A stretch of 64,000 nt of DNA from assembly GCF_000243095.1 (NCBI RefSeq), contig NZ_AHJE01000012.1, positions 62,001-126,000 of the forward strand, read 5' to 3'. The position numbers and the translations under genes are program-made. The DNA is from Cupriavidus basilensis OR16. GTDB taxonomy: Bacteria > Pseudomonadota > Gammaproteobacteria > Burkholderiales > Burkholderiaceae. Below are positions 2,498-28,465 of this stretch, in pieces (the first letter of the stretch is position 1; the number at the start of each line of letters is the position of its first letter). Under the pieces are notes generated by a model. The model saw nothing but the letters and a program-made list of their open reading frames with translations, searched no databases and was not told the origin of the DNA.

Positions 2498-3192
2498 AGC
2501 TCCGCCGTGGCACCTTCAAGGGCGATCCCGCGACGCAGGCCCTGCAGCTGGGCGGGGTGAACAAGCTCAAGCTGGAGCGCAATCGCTCCTACCTCTTCAA
2601 CGCGCTGCAGGCGCTGTGCATGATCGGGCTATCGGCAGCAGTCTGGCGCCTGGCGGAGATCCACACGGTGATACCCGTGGTGTCCGTTGTCGATGCCAAT
2701 GGACATGTGACCAAGCAGACCGTGGTCAACAAGGACACGATCACCGCGCAGGACGCCTTCGTGCAAAGCGAAGTGCACGCCTTCGTGACGGCGTGCAACA
2801 CATTCGACCCGGCATGGCGCCAGCATTACGCGGACCTATGCCGGCTGCACGCCACGCTGGCGGTCGCGCGCCAGTACGACACCGAAACAGGGCCGGAGAA
2901 CCCGGACAACCCGTACTACCAGCTCGCCAAGGGCGAGCGACGCTACCCGCGCATCACCGCGGTGACGTCGCTCGCCAAGGAAGCGTACCAGGTGTCGTTC
3001 CAGTCGATCACCGACCGGCCTGGTTCCGAACCGAGGGTTGAATACTTCACGGCGCTCGTTCACTACACCTTCACCTACAAGCCGCTTGCTCTCGGTGATC
3101 GCTGGGAGAACCCGCTGGGCTTTGCGGCGACTGCCTATCGCAAGGACCAGGAACTCAGCCGCCAGCAGGGCGCGCTGCCCGCAAGCCAATGA
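2494..3192 (+). CDS. virB8: VirB8-type T4SS inner-membrane bridge protein
   Basis: 232 aa from ATG 2494, which overlaps the virB6 stop. This start gives a short cytoplasmic tail, one TM helix at about residues 30-50 (YLFNALQALCMIGLSAAVW) and a periplasmic NTF2-like domain, the standard VirB8 layout. The ORF is open further upstream but that would run into virB6. VirB8 nucleates the T4SS core and contacts VirB9/VirB10, which follow immediately. Confidence 0.88.
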   Translation: MKLRRGTFKGDPATQALQLGGVNKLKLERNRSYLFNALQALCMIGLSAAVWRLAEIHTVIPVVSVVDANGHVTKQTVVNKDTITAQDAFVQSEVHAFVTACNTFDPAWRQHYADLCRLHATLAVARQYDTETGPENPDNPYYQLAKGERRYPRITAVTSLAKEAYQVSFQSITDRPGSEPRVEYFTALVHYTFTYKPLALGDRWENPLGFAATAYRKDQELSRQQGALPASQ

Positions 3193-3211
3193 CTATCCAG
3201 GAGAATCCAAC

Positions 3212-3982
3212 GTGAAATCCCGCACCATTTCCCGCGCCGTGTTCCTGGCCGCTGCGGCGGCCCTGCAGCTGGCCGCGATGCCGGCGCAGGCGGCCAAGGC
3301 GCCCAACGCGCTCATCACCGATGCTCGCGTCAAGCAGGTGGCCTACGACGCGAACCAGGTATATGAAATCACGGGCACTTATGGCTACCAGACCGCGATC
3401 GAGTTTGGCCGCGACGAGACGGTCAAGGTGGTGACGCTGGGCGACACCATTGCCTGGCAGACCGTGCCGTATCTGAACCGGCTGTTTCTCAAACCGGTAG
3501 AGCCGAACGCGGCGACGAACCTGACGGTCATCACGGACAAACACACTTACTTCTTCCGCCTCAACAGCGCCGACGCCCGCGCGCCGATGACCTTTGTGGT
3601 GCGGTTTCTCTATCCGTCGGCTAACCCCATCCTGCAGGGAGCCATTGGCGTGCCGGCCGCAGAGGCTGTCCCCTCCCGGCTTAACGAGGGTTTCGATGTG
3701 GCCAAGCTGAACCTGAGCTACAGCAGCGCCGGCGACAAGGCCGCAGTGCAACTGAACCGTGTCTTTGATGATGGCCAGTTCACGTACTTCCTGTTTGAGC
3801 CCAACGCCGAGATTCCGGCCTTCTATGCGGTCGGTGCAGATGGCACCGAATCGGTCTTGAACAGGCGGCGTGAGGGTCCCTACATGGTAGTGGAGCGCAC
3901 CGCTGGCCGCTTCACACTGCGCAATGGCAACGCGTACCTGTGCGTGCAGAACAATGGCGCTACGGCGCGCGTGGGGGGCTGA
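3212..3982 (+). CDS. virB9: VirB9-type T4SS outer-membrane core-complex protein
   Basis: 256 aa from GTG 3212, preceded by CCAGGAGA (3197-3204). The start gives a signal peptide ending near MPAQAAKA. The mature protein has the VirB9 N-terminal domain (TGTYGYQTAIEF, GDTIAWQTVP, LFLKP, ADARAPMTFVVRFLYP) and the C-terminal CagX/VirB9 beta domain (GQFTYFLFE...IPAFYAV, YMVVERTAGRFTLRNG). VirB9, VirB7 and VirB10 form the outer-membrane ring. No VirB7 lipoprotein was found in this window. Confidence 0.92.
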   Translation: MKSRTISRAVFLAAAAALQLAAMPAQAAKAPNALITDARVKQVAYDANQVYEITGTYGYQTAIEFGRDETVKVVTLGDTIAWQTVPYLNRLFLKPVEPNAATNLTVITDKHTYFFRLNSADARAPMTFVVRFLYPSANPILQGAIGVPAAEAVPSRLNEGFDVAKLNLSYSSAGDKAAVQLNRVFDDGQFTYFLFEPNAEIPAFYAVGADGTESVLNRRREGPYMVVERTAGRFTLRNGNAYLCVQNNGATARVGG

Positions 3983-5408: not shown

Positions 5409-6027
5409 CGAACAGGGCGCGTTTCGGTTCGTGAATAGTGGCGCCAATAATGAGTCGGAAGACGCGCGCTTGCTGGCGCTGTATCGGTCGGGGCAATGGG
5501 TTGAGTTCTTGCGCGGCGCGGTGCTTGCACACAAGAACATCGCCATTTCTGCCGGCACGTATTGCGGCAAGACAACCTGCCTCAACGCGTTGGTGCAAGA
5601 GATACCGGCGCACGAGCGCATCGTCACGATTGAGGACTCACGAGAGATCGAACCGGCGCAACGGAACTGCGTGCGACTGTCCTATGCCCGTCATCAGGCA
5701 AGCGGACAGGGAGCGGTTACGCCGACCACACTCCTTCGGTCATGCATGCGACTCACACCCGACCGGGTAATCATGGGTGAGATCCGTGGCCCCGAAGCGG
5801 TTGAGTTTCTGAATATGCTCAACACGGGCCACAAGGGAACGCTGACGACGATTCACACTGACTCACCATCAGAGATGTACGACCGCTTTGGTGAGCTGAT
5901 GGACGGTCATACGTCCATGACACGTCAGCAGGTCATTGAACGCGTCAAACGGCGGATCGATGTTGTTGTGCAGTGGAAATACACCGAGCGCGACGGCCGC
6001 TACATTTCGGAGATTCAGTATGCGTGA
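5218..6027 (+). CDS. virB11: VirB11-type T4SS secretion ATPase lacking its N-terminal domain
   Basis: Only ~260 residues of a normally ~330-340 aa hexameric ATPase. Family sequence begins abruptly at FSAEIPVNLEDG, preceded in frame by a stop at 5188-5190, with only a TTG (5218) as possible start. The ATPase half is complete: Walker A AGTYCGKTT near residue 112, Asp box IVTIEDSREIE, Walker B RVIMGEIRG, His box GHKGTLTTIHTD. About 80-90 N-terminal residues are missing, which suggests a deletion fusing virB10 to virB11. As read here the protein probably cannot form the normal ring, so T4SS function is doubtful unless the sequence is in error. Confidence 0.75.
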   Translation: MWCQGCRFRSFSAEIPVNLEDGIPDFERGTYRTEMILPPVVPEGTIAMTIRKQSLVKMTLPAYDEQGAFRFVNSGANNESEDARLLALYRSGQWVEFLRGAVLAHKNIAISAGTYCGKTTCLNALVQEIPAHERIVTIEDSREIEPAQRNCVRLSYARHQASGQGAVTPTTLLRSCMRLTPDRVIMGEIRGPEAVEFLNMLNTGHKGTLTTIHTDSPSEMYDRFGELMDGHTSMTRQQVIERVKRRIDVVVQWKYTERDGRYISEIQYA

Positions 6028-6511
6028 AAACACGGTACTTTCCCGCGCCCAGTCCGCCACCGTCACCAATCTGGGTGGCAGCCAGGGGGCGAGCGCTGAA
6101 GCAGACCTGAAGGCAGTCTACGACGCGTTCGGCATTAGCGCGCCGGCCAGGACGCTTAGTGTCTTGCTGGCGTGCATTGACAACGTTAGGCGGCATGCCG
6201 AATGCCTGCATGCCATTGAGTGCGAATTCATCATGGTTCCGGGCGAGCCTGACGACGCCTATCCCGACGATGAGCGGAACGATGAGTCCCCGCTCTACTG
6301 GGGTGCCAGCCCCGAGCAGTATGTCGAGCAGTTCCGGAAGGCGTTGCAAACCATCGCCGCCCCGCGACCGAGCGAGGACAAGCGCGATACCACCGCAGCG
6401 GCACGCGCCGCGCTCGCAGAATGCGGCCGCCAAGTCGATGCCGAGGGCCCGCCGCCCGCGCATGACGAGCGCCTTGACCGCGCCGCCATCGTCAAAGGGG
6501 AAGGCAAGTGA
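6020..6511 (+). CDS. Hypothetical protein in T4SS operon
   Basis: 163 aa from ATG 6020, which overlaps the virB11 stop. Acidic, soluble, no signal peptide or TM helix. A helical N-terminal half (AEADLKAVYDAFGISAPARTL, split helices) is followed by an Asp/Glu-rich middle and a low-complexity tail. Not recognised. Its tight coupling to virB11 and to the next gene suggests a conjugation accessory role only by position. Confidence 0.6.
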   Translation: MRENTVLSRAQSATVTNLGGSQGASAEADLKAVYDAFGISAPARTLSVLLACIDNVRRHAECLHAIECEFIMVPGEPDDAYPDDERNDESPLYWGASPEQYVEQFRKALQTIAAPRPSEDKRDTTAAARAALAECGRQVDAEGPPPAHDERLDRAAIVKGEGK

Positions 6512-6807
6512 GCGCGAAGCACTACCCACTCGACATCAAACGCGTCGACGAGGACACCTACATCCTCATGTCGAAGGGGCATCACGATCCGCACGAGTTC
6601 ATGCGCAAGGCCCGCGAGGAAGGCTGGACCTGGCCGCTGAGGACGCCGGTCCACACGTGGATGCGGGCGGTTCCCTCGCGCGCTCCTGAGTACAACTGCA
6701 TCTACGTTGAGGCGGCTGAAGGCGAGCGCGGCGCGTGGCCGGCGACCTACGCCTACGGGGTATACGGCGACGACCATTACCAAGCACCGGTGGGAGCCCA
6801 GCCATGA
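6508..6807 (+). CDS. Hypothetical protein in T4SS operon
   Basis: 99 aa starting at GTG 6508, which overlaps the previous stop (GTGA). Small basic/aromatic protein with EFMRKAREEGWTW and many Tyr/Trp residues. No recognised domain. Ends 4 bases into the next gene, so it is part of the same translationally coupled string. Confidence 0.6.
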   Translation: MSAKHYPLDIKRVDEDTYILMSKGHHDPHEFMRKAREEGWTWPLRTPVHTWMRAVPSRAPEYNCIYVEAAEGERGAWPATYAYGVYGDDHYQAPVGAQP

Positions 6808-7730
6808 TTGAGCGCCGCCACCGGAAGACGCTGTCGCCTGCCATCCTGGCCGGCGTGATAGCGGTCACGCCACGGTTCGCCGCGGGGGCGCAGCCCCCCA
6901 TTCTGTCGCTGCCATTCGAGCAGTTGGCGGCCAACTGCGCGCCGCAAATCCACCCAACGACACTCAAGGGCTTGATCTACACAGAGTCATCCTGGAACCC
7001 CTATGCCATCGGTATCGTCGGCGGCCGCCTGGAACGACAGCCGCGCACTCACGCGCAAGCGGTGGCGGCCGCCAAGGACCTGGATCGGCGTGGCTACAAC
7101 TTCTCCATGGGCCTGGGGCAGGTGAACCGGTACAACCTGGCCAAGTACGGTGAGACCTACGAGACCGTGTTCGAACCGTGTCGCAATCTGAAGGCCGGCG
7201 GCGCCATCCTCAAGGATTGCTATGACCGTGCGAAGCGCAAGATGCCTAGCGAGCAGCGGGCATTACGCGCCGCGATCAGCTGCTACTACTCAGGCAACTT
7301 CACCCGAGGCTTCCGCCCGGACAAGCCTGGTGAGCCTAGTTACGTCCAGAAGGTGGTGGCCAACGCCGCCGGCGTCGCGCGGCCAATTATCGTTGTCCCT
7401 GCCATTCAACCCCCAACGGGCAGCGAGCCAGTTCGCGCCGAGCGGCCGACACCGACATCCTCCGCATCGCCCAATCCGGCCGCACCTGCGCAATGGGTGA
7501 TCTTTGCCAGCGCAGCGCCGGCGGAAGTGGCCGTGCTGGCACCCGCTGACACCGCCGGCGCTCAGGCAGCCGCAATCAAGGTGCAGCTAGCCACACCCGC
7601 GGCGGGCGCTGACATCACTGCTGTTCGTGCGGCGACAGCGCCAGCGGTGGCACAGCCCGCGCTGCCAGCACCGATGTCCGGCACCGTCAGCGGGCCGCCG
7701 GCAACGCCGTTCGTGCAGTTCTTCAACTGA
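6804..7730 (+). CDS. virB1: VirB1-type lytic transglycosylase
   Basis: 308 aa from ATG 6804. A basic N-terminus and hydrophobic stretch (LSPAILAGVIAV) act as export signal. The SLT domain follows, with catalytic Glu at about residue 61 in YTESSWNP, the MGLGQVN motif and an AISCYYSGN tail. It opens the peptidoglycan for T4SS assembly. The last ~120 residues are a Pro/Ala-rich low-complexity tail. In pKM101 virB1 is first in the operon; here it lies after virB11, a rearranged order. Confidence 0.88.
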   Translation: MIERRHRKTLSPAILAGVIAVTPRFAAGAQPPILSLPFEQLAANCAPQIHPTTLKGLIYTESSWNPYAIGIVGGRLERQPRTHAQAVAAAKDLDRRGYNFSMGLGQVNRYNLAKYGETYETVFEPCRNLKAGGAILKDCYDRAKRKMPSEQRALRAAISCYYSGNFTRGFRPDKPGEPSYVQKVVANAAGVARPIIVVPAIQPPTGSEPVRAERPTPTSSASPNPAAPAQWVIFASAAPAEVAVLAPADTAGAQAAAIKVQLATPAAGADITAVRAATAPAVAQPALPAPMSGTVSGPPATPFVQFFN

Positions 7731-22449: not shown

Positions 22450-23310
22450 TCAAGCGCTTTCGATCAAGCGCAGTACCGCTTCGGCAAGGGCGCCATTGCC
22501 GTCACCAAGCAGGTCGACAGCGTCGAAATGGTGGCCTCGCCTCTGTTCGACCACCTGCACGTCGAAGCCATTCGCTTCCAGTAGCGTCTGGTATTCGCGC
22601 TGGAGCCGGTGGTATTCCGGCGACTCATCGCCGCCCACAGTGAGAATCATCGGCAGCCTCACCTTCGGCAGATGAGAGACGGGGCTGTAGGCGGCGACGT
22701 CCGTCTCGGTCAGTTGCACCACCTTGTTGAGATAGCAAAGCCGGATCGGTTCGAGGTCGTACAGCCCACTGATCGCGCAACCGCCCTTGAGAAGATCCGC
22801 CGGAACGCCGAATTTCTCCCAGTTGGTGCCCGCCAGGATTGCAGTGAGATGTCCGCCAGCGGAGTGCCCCGAGACATAGATCCTGTTGGCATCGAAGCCG
22901 CCGAGTTCGCCTGCGTTGCGATAGAGCCATGTCACCGCGTCGCGATTGTCGCGGACGATCTCCGACATCCCCACATCCGGCGCCAGCCGGTAGTTGACCA
23001 CCGCAACGTTGATGTCGCGCTTCAGGTAGGGCGAGGCAATGTAGCTGAAGTCGGATTTGTCCAGAGACTGCCAGTATCCCCCGTGAATGAAGACCAGCAG
23101 CGGACGGCCCTTGTTGGCGGCCGGGAAAAAATCGAGCGTCTGCTTGGCGTCGGGCCCGTACGCGCGATTCTCCATGACGGGGTGGGTCCGGCGGAAGTCT
23201 TCGCTGACCTTCGCCCAGGTCTGGAAGATGTCCTGGAAGCCGGGAATCCCGGCCCTGACGTTGTACTGCCTGTCCAGCTCTTGCTGATTGAAGTTTCGAT
23301 ACACTGACAT
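22450..23310 (-). CDS. Alpha/beta hydrolase, arylformamidase-like
   Basis: 286 aa from ATG 23310 (GGAG 9 nt upstream; the frame is open further to 23358 but without a site). Oxyanion-hole HGGYW (about residue 75), nucleophile elbow GHSAGGH and a C-terminal GHHFDAVD with the catalytic His. This set is shared by kynurenine formamidase and related esterases in the BD-FAE/esterase-lipase group. It is divergent from an AraC regulator whose operon carries RidA, a PurA paralogue and a flavoprotein, so a formyl-amide or ester of that pathway may be its substrate (inference). Confidence 0.8.
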   Translation of the reverse strand: MSVYRNFNQQELDRQYNVRAGIPGFQDIFQTWAKVSEDFRRTHPVMENRAYGPDAKQTLDFFPAANKGRPLLVFIHGGYWQSLDKSDFSYIASPYLKRDINVAVVNYRLAPDVGMSEIVRDNRDAVTWLYRNAGELGGFDANRIYVSGHSAGGHLTAILAGTNWEKFGVPADLLKGGCAISGLYDLEPIRLCYLNKVVQLTETDVAAYSPVSHLPKVRLPMILTVGGDESPEYHRLQREYQTLLEANGFDVQVVEQRRGHHFDAVDLLGDGNGALAEAVLRLIESA

Positions 23311-23449
23311 TACATTGGCTCCAGACTGTTGGAATCGATAGGCCGATTCCTTTTGCAAGTTGCGACGCTCGTTGGCGTCCGACCAAAGATACTTGCCTGC
23401 GCCAGATCCTCGCGCGCCAGCAAATGACAGCGACTATCGCGGAGATGCC

Positions 23450-24235
23450 ATGTTTGGAAAGAGCGAGAACCGGGACGACTATCAGGCCATAGGCCAGCCG
23501 ATCGGCGGGATGGCGCGCGCCCTTGCGGACGGCTTCTATATCGACACGCACTCACATCCGCGCGGTCAACTCATCTACGCTTACGTCGGCGCCATCTCGG
23601 TGTCGACCGACTATGGCTCATGGGTCGTGCCTCCCCAGCGCGCCGTCTGGGTGCCGTGCAATGTCCGGCACGCCATGCAGGCTTGCGGCGACGTCGAGAT
23701 GCGCACCGTCTACATTCGCGAGGACGCCATCCCGGCGGAATTGCAGACGTGCTGCGTCGTTGCGGTGCCGCCGCTGCTCCGGGAACTGATTTCCGCCGTC
23801 GTGCGCATGCCGGTCGAGTACGAGCAGGACGGACGCGACGGCCTAGTGGTCCAGCTTCTGCTGCATGAACTGCGCCCCCTCTCCGTGGTCCCCCTTCACT
23901 TGCCCATGCCCAAGGACAACCGGCTGAGCAAGATCTGCGCGAGGGTCCTCGACGATCCTGCCGACGAAACGTCGGTACAGGAGTGGAGCCAGTTCGTTGG
24001 CGCCAGCGAGCGCACCATCATCCGTCTCTTTCCCGAAGAGACTGGACTGACCTATAGCCGCTGGAAACAGCAGGCGCGACTGATGGCTGCCGTTCGCCTC
24101 CTGGCGGAAGGATGCCACGTGACCGATATCGCACTGCAGCTCGGATACGAGAGTCCCAGCGCCTTCAGCGCCATGTTTCGCCGGGCGCTCGGTATGACGC
24201 CCACCGAGTATTTCCGGGATGCCGCAGGTGACTAA
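23450..24235 (+). CDS. AraC-family transcriptional regulator with cupin sensor domain
   Basis: 261 aa from ATG 23450 (CGGAG 23440-23444). The N-terminal cupin-like domain (THSHPRGQLIYAYVGAI, WVVPPQRAVWVPCNVRHAM) precedes two C-terminal HTH motifs (VQEWSQFVGASERTIIRLF, and VTDIALQLGYESPSAFSAMF with RRALGMTPTEYFR). Divergent from the hydrolase and upstream of the RidA-PurA-like operon, it presumably controls both. Confidence 0.9.
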   Translation: MFGKSENRDDYQAIGQPIGGMARALADGFYIDTHSHPRGQLIYAYVGAISVSTDYGSWVVPPQRAVWVPCNVRHAMQACGDVEMRTVYIREDAIPAELQTCCVVAVPPLLRELISAVVRMPVEYEQDGRDGLVVQLLLHELRPLSVVPLHLPMPKDNRLSKICARVLDDPADETSVQEWSQFVGASERTIIRLFPEETGLTYSRWKQQARLMAAVRLLAEGCHVTDIALQLGYESPSAFSAMFRRALGMTPTEYFRDAAGD

Positions 24236-24384
24236 CGCAGCCCCGCAGGCTGGATTGGCGTCTGCGCGACAGTAACTGGCGTCGGGACGCCGGTCACTGT
24301 CTCGGCCGTACGGCACAGTCAACGGGCCGACGGTTGAGGCAGCGTGCTTTCTCCGTCGGTACTTGTTCAAATCGAGGAGTCAGC

Positions 24385-24849
24385 ATGTCAGTCATCGATC
24401 GTATCGAGGTGGCCGGGATCGTCCTGCCAGCCGCCGAATTCCCCAGGGCTCTGTACGTGCCGTACACAGTACACAACGGCCTCCTGACGGTGTCGGGGCA
24501 GTTGCCGCTGAAAGGCGGAAAGCCCGAATTCGTCGGTAAGGTACCTGGAGAAGTCACCGTGGAAGACGCCCGCGCGGCGGCGCGGCTTTGCCTCGTCAAT
24601 CTGCTCGGTTGGGCCGCGGCCGCAACGGACGGCGATCTCGAGCGGATCCGGGGCATCGTTCGTGTGGGTGGCTACGTGGCGGCGCAGCCGGGGTTTCATG
24701 ACGCGCCCGCGGTGATCAACGCCGCTTCGGAGCTTCTCAATGAGATCTTTGGCGAAAAAGGGCGCCATGCCCGCGTGGCCATGGGCGTCGCGAGCCTGCC
24801 CTTCGACGCGCCAGTCGAGATCGAAGCCACGTTTGTCCTGGATGCCTGA
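24385..24849 (+). CDS. RidA/YjgF-family protein (YjgF-like subgroup)
   Basis: 154 aa from ATG 24385 (GAGGAG upstream). Begins with the long N-terminal variant of the YjgF/chorismate-mutase-like fold: VHNGLLTVSGQLPL, TVEDARAAARLCLVNLL and VRVGGYVAAQPGFHDAP. I do not see the canonical imine-deaminase Arg followed by the usual C-terminal PxxxxVE, but RVAMGVASLPFDAPVEIEA is close. Members hydrolyse reactive enamines/imines or act in specific catabolic routes. Ends 3 nt before the PurA-like gene, so same operon. Confidence 0.8.
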   Translation: MSVIDRIEVAGIVLPAAEFPRALYVPYTVHNGLLTVSGQLPLKGGKPEFVGKVPGEVTVEDARAAARLCLVNLLGWAAAATDGDLERIRGIVRVGGYVAAQPGFHDAPAVINAASELLNEIFGEKGRHARVAMGVASLPFDAPVEIEATFVLDA

Positions 24850-24852
24850 GCA

Positions 24853-26223
24853 ATGGAAACACAGACAAAAGCCGGGTACGCCGACGTCCTGGTCGGGTTG
24901 CAATACGGCGATGAAGGAAAGGCGCGGGTGGTAGATCATCTCGCCGGCGCTTATGACGTGATCGCGCGCTTCAACGGCGGTGCCAATGCGGGTCATACGA
25001 TCGTCACTGCCAGCGGGGAATTGCGCTTGCGGCAGATCCCGTCTGGGGTATTGCATAGGCTGGTCGCACTCTATATCGGATCTGGCTGCGTCATCGGCTT
25101 GCAGCAACTGGCGAGCGAGATCGGGATGCTCGCCGCATACGGGATTGATCTCGCCGGTCGACTGACGATCAGCGACCGATGCCCACTTGTCCAGCCGGTC
25201 CACGTGCTGCGCGATCGCAATGAAGGCGGACAAATCGGCACGACGGGAAACGGCATTGGGCCCTGCTACGCGGACCTCGCTGTCCGGATGCACGACGGTG
25301 AACGATCCTCCTTCCAGCTTCGGGACCTGTTGCGGGATGCCGAGGAGGTATTCGAAAAGCTGAATCGGGCTGCTGCGTTGCGCGAGGAAGGCGAGCTCGC
25401 CAATGCCATGAACCGGATGCGCGAAGCGTGGGACGTCGTGCGGCCGTTCGTCACGGACGATCCACTCTGGCTGCCGCGTCGGGTGGAACAGGGGGCGAGG
25501 GTGCTCTTCGAAGGCGCGCAGTCCGTGATGCTCGACGTCGTACATGGCGACCAGCCGTGGGTCACTTCCAGCCATACCTTGCCCTCGTATGCCTACGTGG
25601 GTGGCGATTTGCCGTGCAAGTACCACCGGAAGACGATCGGCGTGGCCAAGGCGATCGTCTCGCGCGTCGGCGGCGGACCGTTACCGACCGAACTCGGAGG
25701 AGAACGATCCGAGCGCTATTGTGCCGATGCCGCACGCTCAGGACGCGGCAAGGCCGACGAAGCCGCTGGGGCCAACGCCCTTGCGCTGCTCGCCGGGGAC
25801 GACGATTTCGGCATCGGCATGGCACTCCGCATGCTGTCGAACGAGTACGGCACCGGAACAGGCAGGCCGCGCCGCGTCGGACTTCTAGATCTCGCGCAAC
25901 TCCGGCTCGCCGTGCAGCAGTTCGGCATCGACGAGGTCTTCCTGAATAAATGCGACAGCCTGGCGGCATTCGCCCGGTGCGCCGACCAAGGCATTCCGGT
26001 CATGGTCGGTCAGGGCTATGCCGGTGGCCGGCACACCATCCGCTTCCCCGCCTTCGGTGAAGCGGCGATTCCGCAGGATCCCGCTGCTCCGCTCCCTCCG
26101 CAGTTGGTGGCTCTGCTCGCGCGCGTGGAAGAGGTCATCGGCCGGCCGCTGCGGGGGATCGGACTGGGCCCCGGGCGGGAGCAGATGCGCATGATTGAAG
26201 AACACCAGGAAGATATGAAATGA
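24853..26223 (+). CDS. Divergent adenylosuccinate synthetase (PurA) paralogue
   Basis: 456 aa. Keeps the PurA fold signatures: QYGDEGKA (catalytic Asp at ~20; canonical has QWGDEGKGK), NAGHT with catalytic His ~48, GTTGNGIGPCY (canonical GTTGRGIGPAY), VLFEGAQSVMLDV, and the Asp-binding GTGTGRPRRVG (canonical VTTGRPRRCG). Several substrate-contacting positions are changed, and the IMP loop reads TSSHTLPSYAYVGG rather than the usual TSSNTTAGG. In an operon with RidA, PNPOx and transport genes it is unlikely to be the housekeeping enzyme. It may ligate Asp to another oxo-purine-like or unrelated substrate. Confidence 0.85.
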   Translation: METQTKAGYADVLVGLQYGDEGKARVVDHLAGAYDVIARFNGGANAGHTIVTASGELRLRQIPSGVLHRLVALYIGSGCVIGLQQLASEIGMLAAYGIDLAGRLTISDRCPLVQPVHVLRDRNEGGQIGTTGNGIGPCYADLAVRMHDGERSSFQLRDLLRDAEEVFEKLNRAAALREEGELANAMNRMREAWDVVRPFVTDDPLWLPRRVEQGARVLFEGAQSVMLDVVHGDQPWVTSSHTLPSYAYVGGDLPCKYHRKTIGVAKAIVSRVGGGPLPTELGGERSERYCADAARSGRGKADEAAGANALALLAGDDDFGIGMALRMLSNEYGTGTGRPRRVGLLDLAQLRLAVQQFGIDEVFLNKCDSLAAFARCADQGIPVMVGQGYAGGRHTIRFPAFGEAAIPQDPAAPLPPQLVALLARVEEVIGRPLRGIGLGPGREQMRMIEEHQEDMK

Positions 26224-26852
26224 CCACTACAACACCATCCTATCTCGACAGCGCCATGCGTCGGACTGACCTCGCATGGACCGACTGGGAAGCAATCGAA
26301 GCGTTTCTGAAGGACGAACTGATCTGCAGGGTCGCCGTCCACGATACGCCGTACCCCTACGTCACGGCGCAGAGCTTCACATTTACCGGCGACGCGTTCC
26401 TGATACACAGTTCGCGCTTCGGCAAGCTCGCCGCTGCAATCCGCGCCAATCCGCTGGTCACGATCGAAATCGACCGCCCCGTCGCGCTGCTTAAGGCACC
26501 CAAAGGCCAGAATACGAGCCTGGAGTACTACAGCGTCATCGCCCGCTGCGTGGTCGTGCTGCGCGATAGTACGGACGAGGTGCGCGCGCACCAGTATCAG
26601 GCACTCGACAAGTTCCGCCCCGAGAAGGATTACTCGCCGATCGAGGATGGCGCTGCCAATCAGATCGTGGCGTATCGATGCGAGATTAGCGAGATGACTG
26701 CAAAGAAACGCATCCTCGCCGACGGACAGTACTCTCCGCCCGGACAGCCGAAGGCGCCGTATCTTCGCTATCCCTTCCAGGCAGGCGCCACGCTATCCGG
26801 ATTGGCACCGGAGGCGTTCGACCCTCACAGGTTCGGCCGGGAAGGACGATAG
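26220..26852 (+). CDS. Pyridoxamine-5'-phosphate-oxidase-like flavin-binding protein
   Basis: 210 aa from ATG 26220, overlapping the PurA-like stop (ATGA). The split-barrel fold shows in LICRVAVHDTPYPYVTAQSF, FLIHSSRFGKLAAAI and PLVTIEIDRP; YYSVIARC then resembles the FMN/NimA-type group. Such proteins are FMN- or F420-dependent reductases or flavin binders. In this operon a redox step on the small molecule handled by the PurA paralogue is plausible. No exact substrate can be read. Confidence 0.75.
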   Translation: MTTTTPSYLDSAMRRTDLAWTDWEAIEAFLKDELICRVAVHDTPYPYVTAQSFTFTGDAFLIHSSRFGKLAAAIRANPLVTIEIDRPVALLKAPKGQNTSLEYYSVIARCVVVLRDSTDEVRAHQYQALDKFRPEKDYSPIEDGAANQIVAYRCEISEMTAKKRILADGQYSPPGQPKAPYLRYPFQAGATLSGLAPEAFDPHRFGREGR

Positions 26853-26890
26853 CTATCGCTCCAAATTTCGCTTTGCAACTCGCATGACAC

Positions 26891-26916
26891 GAGGGGTGCC
26901 CAGGCACCTCTTTTTT
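26891..26916 (+). terminator. Rho-independent terminator after the PNPOx gene
   Basis: GGTGC-CCAG-GCACC stem-loop within GAGGGGTGCCCAGGCACC, followed by TCTTTTTT. It ends the RidA-PurA-PNPOx transcript 40 nt after the stop and separates it from the MFS gene. Confidence 0.8.
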
Positions 26917-27049
26917 ATCTTCAAGCCATCCTGTTTCGGCAATATTCCATGGCATCTGCGAGATAGAGCTTGGCGTTGCGGCACGCGCTTCGGAAACGCA
27001 TCCACGCGACAGTAGCAAGCGATATCGCGGCATCGCGCTATCGCTTTCG

Positions 27050-27070
27050 GCCGGCACTCCCGGTGCCGGC
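27050..27070 (+). promoter_or_regulatory. Strong hairpin in the leader of the MFS gene
   Basis: GCCGGCAC (27050-27057) and GTGCCGGC (27063-27070) form an 8-bp perfect stem with a 5-nt loop, ending 21 nt before the MFS start codon and just upstream of CTGGAGA. Could be a repressor-binding palindrome or a translation-affecting RNA hairpin. Confidence 0.4.
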
Positions 27071-27091
27071 ACAAGAACTACTGGAGACAAT

Positions 27092-28465
27092 ATGAAGCTC
27101 ACCCCTCTCGAGTTGATGCGCGTGCGCACCGGAGACCGGTTGGAACGGTTGCCGGTGTGCGGGTATCACCGATCGCTCTTCGCCATCATTGCGCTGGCTT
27201 TCTTCTTCGATAATCTCGACCTGGCTATGATGACCTATCTGCTGGGGTCGATTCGCACCGAGTTCGGATTGACGTCCGCGCAGGCCGGTATGCTCGGGAG
27301 CGCCAGTTTCGTAGGGATGGGAATCGGTGCGCTAAGTTCCGGCGTGCTGGCGGACAAGTTCGGCCGCAAGCCGGTGTTCCAGGTCAGTATGATCATCTGG
27401 GGCGTAGGCAGTTATCTCTGTTCGACCGCCGACAGCCCGCAAGTGCTCGCCGCTTATCGCTTGCTGCTCGGGCTCGGTATGGGCATGGAGCTGCCGTTGG
27501 CGCAGACCCTGATGTCGGAGTTCATCCCGGCGCGCCAGCGCGGCAAGTATCTGGCATTGATGGACGGCAACTGGCCGATCGCCTTTATCTGTGCCGGCCT
27601 GATGTCCTACTACGTGCTCAGTGCCTACACATGGCGAACGATGTTCCTGCTGGGGGCAACTCCCGCCCTCTTTCTGTTCGTCGTACGGCGCTATGTCCCC
27701 GAATCGCCGCGCTGGCTCGAATCGAAAGGCCGTCACGAGGAGGCCTCCGGCATCGTGGATCGTATCGAGAAAGTGGTCATGCGGAAATTGAAGCTGTCGT
27801 CGCTGCCGGAGATCATGCCTGCGCTGTCGGCTGCCGAGCCGGAGACCTCTGGTCTGCGTGTACTCTGGTCGCGCGAGTACCGGAGCCGGACATTGACGGT
27901 CTGGGGACTGTGGTTCTTTGCATTGCTGGGCTTCTACGGCCTGAACACATGGATTGGCGCACTGCTGCAGCAGTCGGGGCTCGGCGTGAGCCAATCCGTG
28001 CTCTACACGGTCTACATTTCCATCGGCGGCATTCCGGGCTTCCTCTGGGCGGCGTTTGCCGTCGAGCGTTGGGGACGCAAGCCTGCATGCGTGACCACGC
28101 TCGTGGGCGGAGCCTGCATGGTATTCCTCTACGGAAAGGTCGCGGGCTCCAATCCGGACGCAATGACGCTCTTGATTTCGGGCGGCATGATGCAGTTTTT
28201 CATGTTCGGCATGTGGGCGGTGCTCTATACCTATACGCCCGAGCTGTATCCGACGCGGGCGCGGGCGTCCGGCTGCGGCATGGCGTCGACCGTCGGGCGG
28301 ATCGGCTCGTTGCTCGGGCCGACGTTGGTCGGGCTGGTATTGCCGATCGCCGGTCAGGCTGGCGTGTTCTGTCTCGGTGCGCTGTGCTTCCTTGCCGCGG
28401 CAATGATCGTGTACAGGTTCGGCATCGAAACGCGAGGGAAGGCGCTGGAGACCATTGCCGAATGA
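27092..28465 (+). CDS. MFS transporter, aromatic-acid/sugar-porter-like
   Basis: 457 aa with 12 predicted TM segments. Typical MFS signatures: DNLDLAMMTYLL in TM1, GVLADKFGRKPVFQ between TM2 and TM3, RLLLGLGMGMELPL in TM4, PESPRWLESKG, and YTPELYPTRARASGCG with ESPRWL/TPELYPT patterns as in sugar or aromatic-acid:H+ symporters. RBS CTGGAGA lies before ATG 27092. It is likely the uptake or efflux carrier for the compound processed by the preceding operon (context). Confidence 0.85.
   Translation: MKLTPLELMRVRTGDRLERLPVCGYHRSLFAIIALAFFFDNLDLAMMTYLLGSIRTEFGLTSAQAGMLGSASFVGMGIGALSSGVLADKFGRKPVFQVSMIIWGVGSYLCSTADSPQVLAAYRLLLGLGMGMELPLAQTLMSEFIPARQRGKYLALMDGNWPIAFICAGLMSYYVLSAYTWRTMFLLGATPALFLFVVRRYVPESPRWLESKGRHEEASGIVDRIEKVVMRKLKLSSLPEIMPALSAAEPETSGLRVLWSREYRSRTLTVWGLWFFALLGFYGLNTWIGALLQQSGLGVSQSVLYTVYISIGGIPGFLWAAFAVERWGRKPACVTTLVGGACMVFLYGKVAGSNPDAMTLLISGGMMQFFMFGMWAVLYTYTPELYPTRARASGCGMASTVGRIGSLLGPTLVGLVLPIAGQAGVFCLGALCFLAAAMIVYRFGIETRGKALETIAE

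Follow-up and report, generated by a model that had tools for sequence, protein, structure and literature searches.

Why should a soil bacterium that already has a housekeeping adenylosuccinate synthetase keep a second, divergent copy among genes for small-molecule turnover? The locus that raises this question lies in the window, a stretch of 64,000 nucleotides from Cupriavidus basilensis OR16 (NCBI RefSeq assembly GCF_000243095.1, contig NZ_AHJE01000012.1, positions 62,001 to 126,000 of the forward strand) that belongs to contig C405 of an 8.5 Mb genome. The gene purA2 (24853..26223, + strand; PF00709, 4.4e-94) encodes the divergent enzyme PurA2. The original prediction placed it in a cluster with genes for a RidA protein, a PNPOx-fold protein, a formamidase-related hydrolase, and an MFS carrier; all of these are present, together with an AraC-family regulator. 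The explanation we tentatively favor, at somewhat below even chances, is that PurA2 may be a working, inhibitor-insensitive adenylosuccinate synthetase, and that the six-gene cassette may serve as a resistance and turnover island for an aspartate-mimicking N-hydroxy antimetabolite, a resistance role that we infer.

PurA2 is a paralogue, as the prediction had held. PF00709 finds two genes in this genome, a canonical purA on contig C395 (575.7 bits) and purA2 (310.7 bits), and the presence of the canonical gene rules out a housekeeping role for PurA2. Orthologs of PurA2 occur in 15 of the 60 genomes of the genus, its own included, with the other 14 at 65–73% identity; a canonical PurA is also present in 14 of these 15 carriers. 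All 13 proteobacterial and actinobacterial PurA2 carriers searched with PF00709 likewise have a better-scoring canonical PurA. Three PF10397 matches elsewhere in this genome are candidates for adenylosuccinate lyase.

Judged by its sequence, PurA2 retains the PurA (PF00709) fold, the catalytic Asp and His, eight IMP contacts, the NKxD guanine motif, R338, and R340. It scores 316 bits against a curated PF00709 cut-off of 27 and is about 34–37% identical to the canonical PurA of the genus over residues 8–283. Residues D20, N45, H48, G129, T131, R145, Q223, T238, V272, R338, R340, and N365-K366-x-D368 are all kept. D20 and H48 (Asp13 and His41 in E. coli numbering) are present in 65 of 65 aligned rows, and His41 is presumably a catalytic residue.

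A study of H. pylori PurA gives D12, N37, G119, T121, T230, V264, R294, and R135* as IMP contacts (PMC11571797). Through constant offsets inside conserved motifs, these map to D20, N45, G129, T131, R145, T238, V272, and R338 of PurA2. All eight positions are unchanged in PurA2 and invariant in 26 of 26 second copies, among which 115 of 456 columns are invariant overall; the hypergeometric probability of all eight being invariant by chance is about 1.4e-5. Outside these 26, one of 15 aligned rows, from the metagenome-assembled genome (MAG) contig L042, has Met at the T238 position. Because the IMP contacts are unchanged in all 26 second copies compared, IMP is probably the substrate of PurA2, and the "altered IMP loop" of the prediction was an error. 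The NKxD motif is also retained, with a K366R variant in Pseudomonas. PurA2 is under purifying selection, with omega values of 0.15–0.35 in four close pairs.

The AlphaFold model of PurA2 has a pLDDT of 82.0, with the active-site loops 42–45 and 223–249 poorly predicted. Its first 33 PDB fold matches are PurA entries (TMq 0.61–0.76), followed by PurZ entries (TMq 0.49–0.59); residues ~288–320 are unaligned in the three PDB alignments compared. The IMP contacts, the NKxD motif, the omega values, and the PurA-like model therefore point to a real adenylosuccinate synthetase.

PurZ and PurZ0 share a superfamily and fold with PurA2, which matches the PurZ model weakly, at 93.9 bits, and the prediction cited phage PurZ as a PurA relative with a new substrate. 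It is nevertheless extremely improbable that PurA2 acts as a PurZ in bacteria and produces a modified purine deoxynucleotide. According to two PurZ studies, phage PurZ has Ser for Asp13 in 100% of 147 sequences (PMC12884076) and has lost the Arg303 contact (PMC8342488). PurA2 has Asp20 instead of that Ser, keeps the Arg303-type ribose O2′ contact residue (R338), misses the NCBIfam cut-off of 300 bits, and is predicted to be nearer PurA than PurZ in structure. The defining residue Asp20 and the scores rule out a PurZ identity.

The GTTGN motif spans residues 129–133 of PurA2. Asn133 stands where the three PDB alignments compared have Arg, the Arg-to-Asn change that the prediction had noticed. 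We take this position to be part of the aspartate site, by analogy with R131 of E. coli. A tree and residue table were made from 65 rows chosen from the matches. Rows omitted from L068–L147 as near-duplicates, partial genes, or further outgroup rows were L072, L073, L088, L090, L092, L093, L094, L099, L106, L111, L113, L116, L118, L119, L127, L131, L132, L143, L144, L145, and L147. PurA2 falls in a clade of 50 rows with PurA of the type found in CPR bacteria and DPANN archaea (support 100/100). A second-copy clade of 26 rows (100/100) has two arms: one of 17 cassette copies (93/88, just short of the level taken as firm in this tree) and one of Pandoraea and actinobacterial copies (100/96). Asn133 occurs in 51 of the 65 rows, including 48 of the 50 in the PurA2-holding clade, where the remaining two have Gln; outside the clade it occurs in three Bacteroidota second copies.

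The CPR/DPANN type is about 38–46% identical to PurA2 among the matches listed, carries GTT(G/K)N in most cases, and is mostly the sole PurA that a genome yields. PF00709 was searched in 17 genomes bearing a CPR or DPANN label, and in 15 of them its one match is of the PurA2 type; because 16 of the 17 titles say MAG, a second PurA could have been missed. Adenylosuccinate lyase, identified by Pfam, adjoins PurA in three DPANN loci (L121, L122, and L125), of which L121 and L122 are from sole-copy genomes and L125 is not. Since Asn133 is present in sole-copy genomes, in some beside adenylosuccinate lyase, it can be reconciled with the normal reaction. A divergent PurA lineage characteristic of CPR/DPANN genomes thus turns up in ordinary bacteria as an additional copy. 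As the Asn change is clade-wide, GTTGN by itself is no sign of a new substrate and was dropped as evidence for one.

Several other observations concern PurA genes outside the cassette. In nine mostly CPR loci (L103, L105, L106, L109–L111, L113, L118, L119), one gene family lies downstream of PurA, either directly after it or one to two genes later. A guess that this gene is PurB was rejected, as Pfam identifies malic enzyme in L103, the one tested. Four Bacteroidota genomes have two PurAs (L133:7998-9293 in Sphingobacterium, L146:7983-9266 in Empedobacter, L142, and L147); the second PurA has Asn at the 133 position in 3 of 3 rows checked, and a small gene that looks Crp/Fnr-like by eye follows it in the two loci read. 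The genus itself has a third kind of PurA (L149:7654-8952, L150:7802-9088, L151:8349-9626, L152:8265-9569, L153:8097-9386, L154:8052-9344). It is of canonical type (the two rows examined both have Arg at the 133 position), and in five of six loci a gene that looks LysR-like by eye stands next to it in divergent orientation. It represents another accessory PurA.

Residues specific to the second copies emerge from a comparison of the 26 second copies with 17 comparison rows, three of which (L115, L120, L125) belong to genomes that have two or more PurA matches; rows L098, L104, L107, L108, L112, L126, and L134 lie outside both groups. Gln234, His241, Pro244, and Gly335 belong to the second copies and set them apart from the CPR/DPANN type, with Gly335 in 25 of 26 second copies and 0 of 17 comparison rows. 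Gly335 sits in the presumed aspartate loop and the other three near the phosphate-binding T238. These residues could fit altered inhibitor binding and, equally, altered specificity.

The nearest kin of PurA2 lie in a different kind of gene cluster. It occurs in twelve Pandoraea loci (L089:5831-13764, with L086–L088, L090–L094, L096, L099, and L100) and in Kitasatospora phosalacinea (L083:5879-13804), where seven genes are colinear with those of Pandoraea at 41–66% identity. The order is SbnA, SbnB, PurA2, an AurF-like protein, an ornithine carbamoyltransferase (OTC)-like protein, a threonine-synthase-like protein, and an FAD oxidoreductase. In our own gene calling, the four genes after PurA2 are found in 12 of 12 Pandoraea loci, and SbnA and SbnB in 10 of 12 each. 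SbnA and SbnB exceed the NCBIfam cut-offs in both Pandoraea and Kitasatospora; the AurF family, the carbamoyltransferase, the threonine-synthase-like pyridoxal phosphate enzyme, and the FAD oxidoreductase were named by Pfam or NCBIfam.

SbnA and SbnB make L-2,3-diaminopropionate, and the cluster likely makes a metabolite derived from it. N-oxygenation and carbamoylation of diaminopropionate would plausibly give a product close to alanosine or hadacidin; the alanosine comparison draws on a review (PMC11705231) and on general background. A literature search on the Pandoraea cluster found no paper naming Pandoraea. Among 345 genomes of the family of the Kitasatospora genome, PurA2-type genes were found in that genome and in no other.

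PurA2 is the only gene common to this cluster and the 17 cassette loci, and the actinobacterial loci L085 and L095 have PurA2 with neither the diaminopropionate cluster nor any cassette gene. As PurA2 is kept in a biosynthesis-type cluster, in the cassette, and without either, it seems to have a property independent of its neighbors. Insensitivity would be the simplest such property, because PurA2 is a second copy of an essential enzyme targeted by aspartate mimics. One of these, hadacidin, occupies the PurA active site together with 6-phosphoryl-IMP and GDP in structure 6ZXQ, as described in PMC11571797.

The cassette is conserved as a unit. All six genes are present and identically ordered in 13 ortholog loci of the genus, and a fourteenth ends with its contig after PurA2; because 13 of 14 keep six genes in order, the clustering is beyond chance. 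The short loci L058–L065 have no room for more than a part of the cassette and lie outside these counts. Relatives in named records were taken from the best 80 of 448 matches of an alignment-based scan. Among the matches listed, the nearest orthologs are from Cupriavidus and 18 records have cassette genes, 17 of them complete and one cut by its contig. Eight of these 18 coincide with contigs of the genus loci, as judged by equal contig names and lengths, and the ten further complete loci are from Herminiimonas (one), Paraburkholderia (three), Pandoraea (four), Caballeronia (one), and Pseudomonas typographi (one, L097, with the hydrolase gene displaced and inverted). Thus, 23 of 24 distinct loci other than this one have the complete cassette.

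The genome-context check suggested with the prediction therefore bears out a regulated, conserved cluster of small-molecule enzymes, with six genes rather than four. Apart from the six, only an RND efflux pair recurs in the flanks of different genera, with an HlyD-like and an AcrB-like member, in L081/L084 of Pandoraea and L097 of Pseudomonas; one further shared "family" is an antisense open reading frame (ORF)-calling artefact. A plasmid of Caballeronia zhejiangensis carries a PurA2-like gene at 57.8% identity, in a stretch annotated as adenylosuccinate synthetase and RidA family protein. A literature search found no description of the six-gene cassette.

In the proposed mechanism, the AraC regulator would sense the compound and make the cassette inducible, and the MFS carrier would move it. 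The hydrolase would take off an N-acyl group (formyl or carbamoyl), the split-barrel PNPOx protein would act on the freed N-hydroxylamine by dehydration or reduction, and RidA would hydrolyse the imine so formed, releasing an oxo acid and ammonia. PurA2 would catalyze the GTP-dependent conversion of IMP and L-aspartate to adenylosuccinate and so sustain AMP synthesis under the block, with the housekeeping adenylosuccinate lyase completing the step. A compound of the hadacidin or alanosine kind is our guess. The prediction's broader interpretation survives in part: turnover of a nitrogen compound in a small-molecule cluster would suit RidA, the PNPOx-fold protein, and a hydrolase related to formamidases, and the antimetabolite link is plausible, while the new oxo-substrate for PurA2 finds no support. 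The flavoprotein redox step that it proposed stays a conjecture, since the PNPOx model ties with flavin- and heme-binding folds alike.

Known self-resistance by target duplication, as with resistant acetolactate synthase, likewise puts a duplicate of an essential enzyme within or close to small-molecule clusters. PurA2 is such a second copy beside a housekeeping gene; it differs in that its insensitivity is only presumed and that no scaffold genes can be recognised in the Burkholderiales cassette. One paper mentions a fungal cluster with an adenylosuccinate synthetase homologue (PMC12616698). If the proposal is true, it offers a route, open to testing, by which bacteria resist and degrade antimetabolites that block AMP synthesis, a class for which a literature search found no bacterial resistance island, and it points to the Pandoraea cluster. 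A wider and unlikely picture is a two-sided system. Pandoraea and some actinomycetes would make a PurA-poisoning, alanosine- or hadacidin-like N-hydroxy diaminopropionate with PurA2 as self-protection, while other Burkholderiales and a Pseudomonas would bypass the block with a PurA2 lineage shared with CPR bacteria and DPANN archaea. These would dismantle the poison by N-deacylation, an N-hydroxylamine dehydratase-like split-barrel enzyme, and RidA.

Several points weigh against the resistance proposal. The insensitivity of PurA2, the inducer, and every chemical step of the neighbors are things that we infer, and we know of no compound for the cassette or for the diaminopropionate cluster. Asn133 is not specific to resistance, as sole copies carry it too. 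The residues Q234, H241, P244, and G335 might just as well signal a change of amine substrate, and the Bdellovibrionales row L104, outside both compared groups, has Gly335 too. Against other genera, PurA2 is the least conserved cassette protein, which would fit a relaxed as well as a special function: mean identities over six Cupriavidus and eight other-genus loci out of 17 are 74.6% for PNPOx, 67.0% for MFS, 64.9% for the hydrolase, 64.2% for AraC, 57.6% for RidA, and 54.7% for PurA2. PurA2 scores 255.5 of 395.55 and 291.3 of 402 bits against the NCBIfam purA equivalogs TIGR00184/NF002223, figures that have no canonical control; such scores may be expected of a divergent type and also of a changed function.

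Further points concern the genomes and the neighbors. Among the PurA2 carriers, the 78% complete draft G045 yields no canonical PurA, and the canonical gene of G042 (86% complete) is fragmented. In the diaminopropionate cluster, the AurF-like protein (34.4 of 620) and the OTC-like protein (282.9 of 288) fall under the NCBIfam cut-offs, and any substrate assigned to them is tentative. Confidence in the PNPOx model is low (pLDDT 62.9), and its matches to N-hydroxylamine enzymes tie with flavin-binding and NimA-type folds. The MFS carrier resembles importers, and would fit uptake of the compound as food as well as export.

Three other accounts of the cassette compete with the resistance proposal. 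The original prediction's own, that PurA2 aminates an oxo-compound, or in a variant joins a nucleotide to an amine other than aspartate, in an undescribed pathway with RidA, PNPOx, and the hydrolase, is improbable. It would explain the divergence of PurA2 below the equivalog cut-offs, the Asn in place of Arg at the presumed aspartate site, the residues specific to second copies, and the tight RidA-PurA2-PNPOx operon. An oxo-substrate is opposed by the IMP contacts, 8 of 8 invariant in all 26 second copies, and by a GTTGN change shared with sole PurAs, some beside adenylosuccinate lyase. PurA2 is moreover kept in differing contexts, even with neither gene set, which is unexpected for a cassette-specific reaction. 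The new-substrate reading is thereby weakened.

PurA2 might instead be an ordinary accessory isozyme, unconnected with any inhibitor and induced through AraC in some metabolic state, such as purine salvage or an imine stress with which RidA deals. Its intact catalytic residues and purifying selection agree with this rather unlikely account, as do the other accessory PurAs beside LysR-like genes in the genus and beside a Crp/Fnr-like gene in Bacteroidota. It leaves unexplained both the biosynthesis-type cluster of the nearest kin and a dedicated PNPOx protein, which at E 1e-30 has a match in 1 of 398 phylum genomes, its own, and none in the other 397. It is quite unlikely that the cassette itself makes a small nitrogen-containing metabolite, with PurA2 as self-protection or a biosynthetic step and the MFS protein as exporter. 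The nearest kin beside SbnA, SbnB, and AurF-like genes and the inclusion of piperazate synthase among the split-barrel relatives speak for such a product, but none of the six genes encodes a recognisable scaffold-forming or activating enzyme, and the RND pair is all that the genera otherwise share in their flanks. A reading as anti-phage defence was dropped, since PADLOC models gave no match to any of the six cassette proteins at E 1e-5.

The hydrolase gene (22450..23307, - strand; Pfam BD-FAE, 1.5e-21) is divergent from the AraC regulator gene (23360..24235, + strand; PF12833 1.5e-22, PF02311 8.7e-7). The RidA/YjgF-family gene (24385..24849, + strand; PF14588 1.2e-17, PF01042 4.3e-12) starts at an ATG after GAGGAG, and the listed ORF opens further upstream at 24334. 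Its end is separated from the start of purA2 by 3 bp, and the stop codon of purA2 overlaps the start codon of the PNPOx-fold gene (26220..26852, + strand; PF12900, 1.6e-25) by four bases. A terminator-like hairpin with a T run (26891..26912, + strand) stands between the PNPOx gene and the MFS gene (27092..28465, + strand; PF07690, 6.8e-48). It is a consensus match, as are all six terminator-like sites of the region, where 3.8 are expected.

The RidA protein exceeds the cut-offs of PF01042 (46.5 vs 27.3 bits) and PF14588 (64.6 vs 35 bits) and falls below that of the Rid detoxifying hydrolase model TIGR00004 (25.6 vs 106.25 bits). Its PDB matches are 3d01 (5.9e-39) and 9bk9 (3.7e-28). Across 10 aligned orthologs, the Arg in HAR and the two Glu residues in VE(I/V)EA do not vary, and Ala presumably occupies the position of E. 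coli RidA Cys107. The MFS carrier is nearest the aromatic acid/H+ symport subfamily, with 278.8 bits for TIGR00895, below the cut-off of 418.55. In the draft locus L037, RidA (3178-3643) and MFS (5855-7223) match in separate pieces, with frame breaks that are either real or sequencing errors.

The PNPOx model is predicted to match N-hydroxylamine dehydratase and piperazate synthase among other structures. The heme split-barrel enzymes NohD and KtzT/PipS, which act on N-hydroxy amino acids, and the NimA-type nitroimidazole resistance proteins appear to share its fold (Z 12.6–14.8), with 12–19% identity in a low-confidence model whose flavin- and heme-binding matches tie in the fold search, plain flavin binders included.

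The hydrolase matches a lipase (9n8r, 2.6e-44), 2pbl (3e-26), and kynurenine formamidase (4e11, 4.3e-16) in the PDB, and its motifs HGGYW, Ser149 (SAGG), GGDE, and GHHFD are invariant across 12 aligned orthologs. Two genus loci have a diverged second hydrolase copy behind the MFS gene (L045:12887-13728 and L046:5875-6723), of which L046 is a Cupriavidus gilardii contig, the same as L101.

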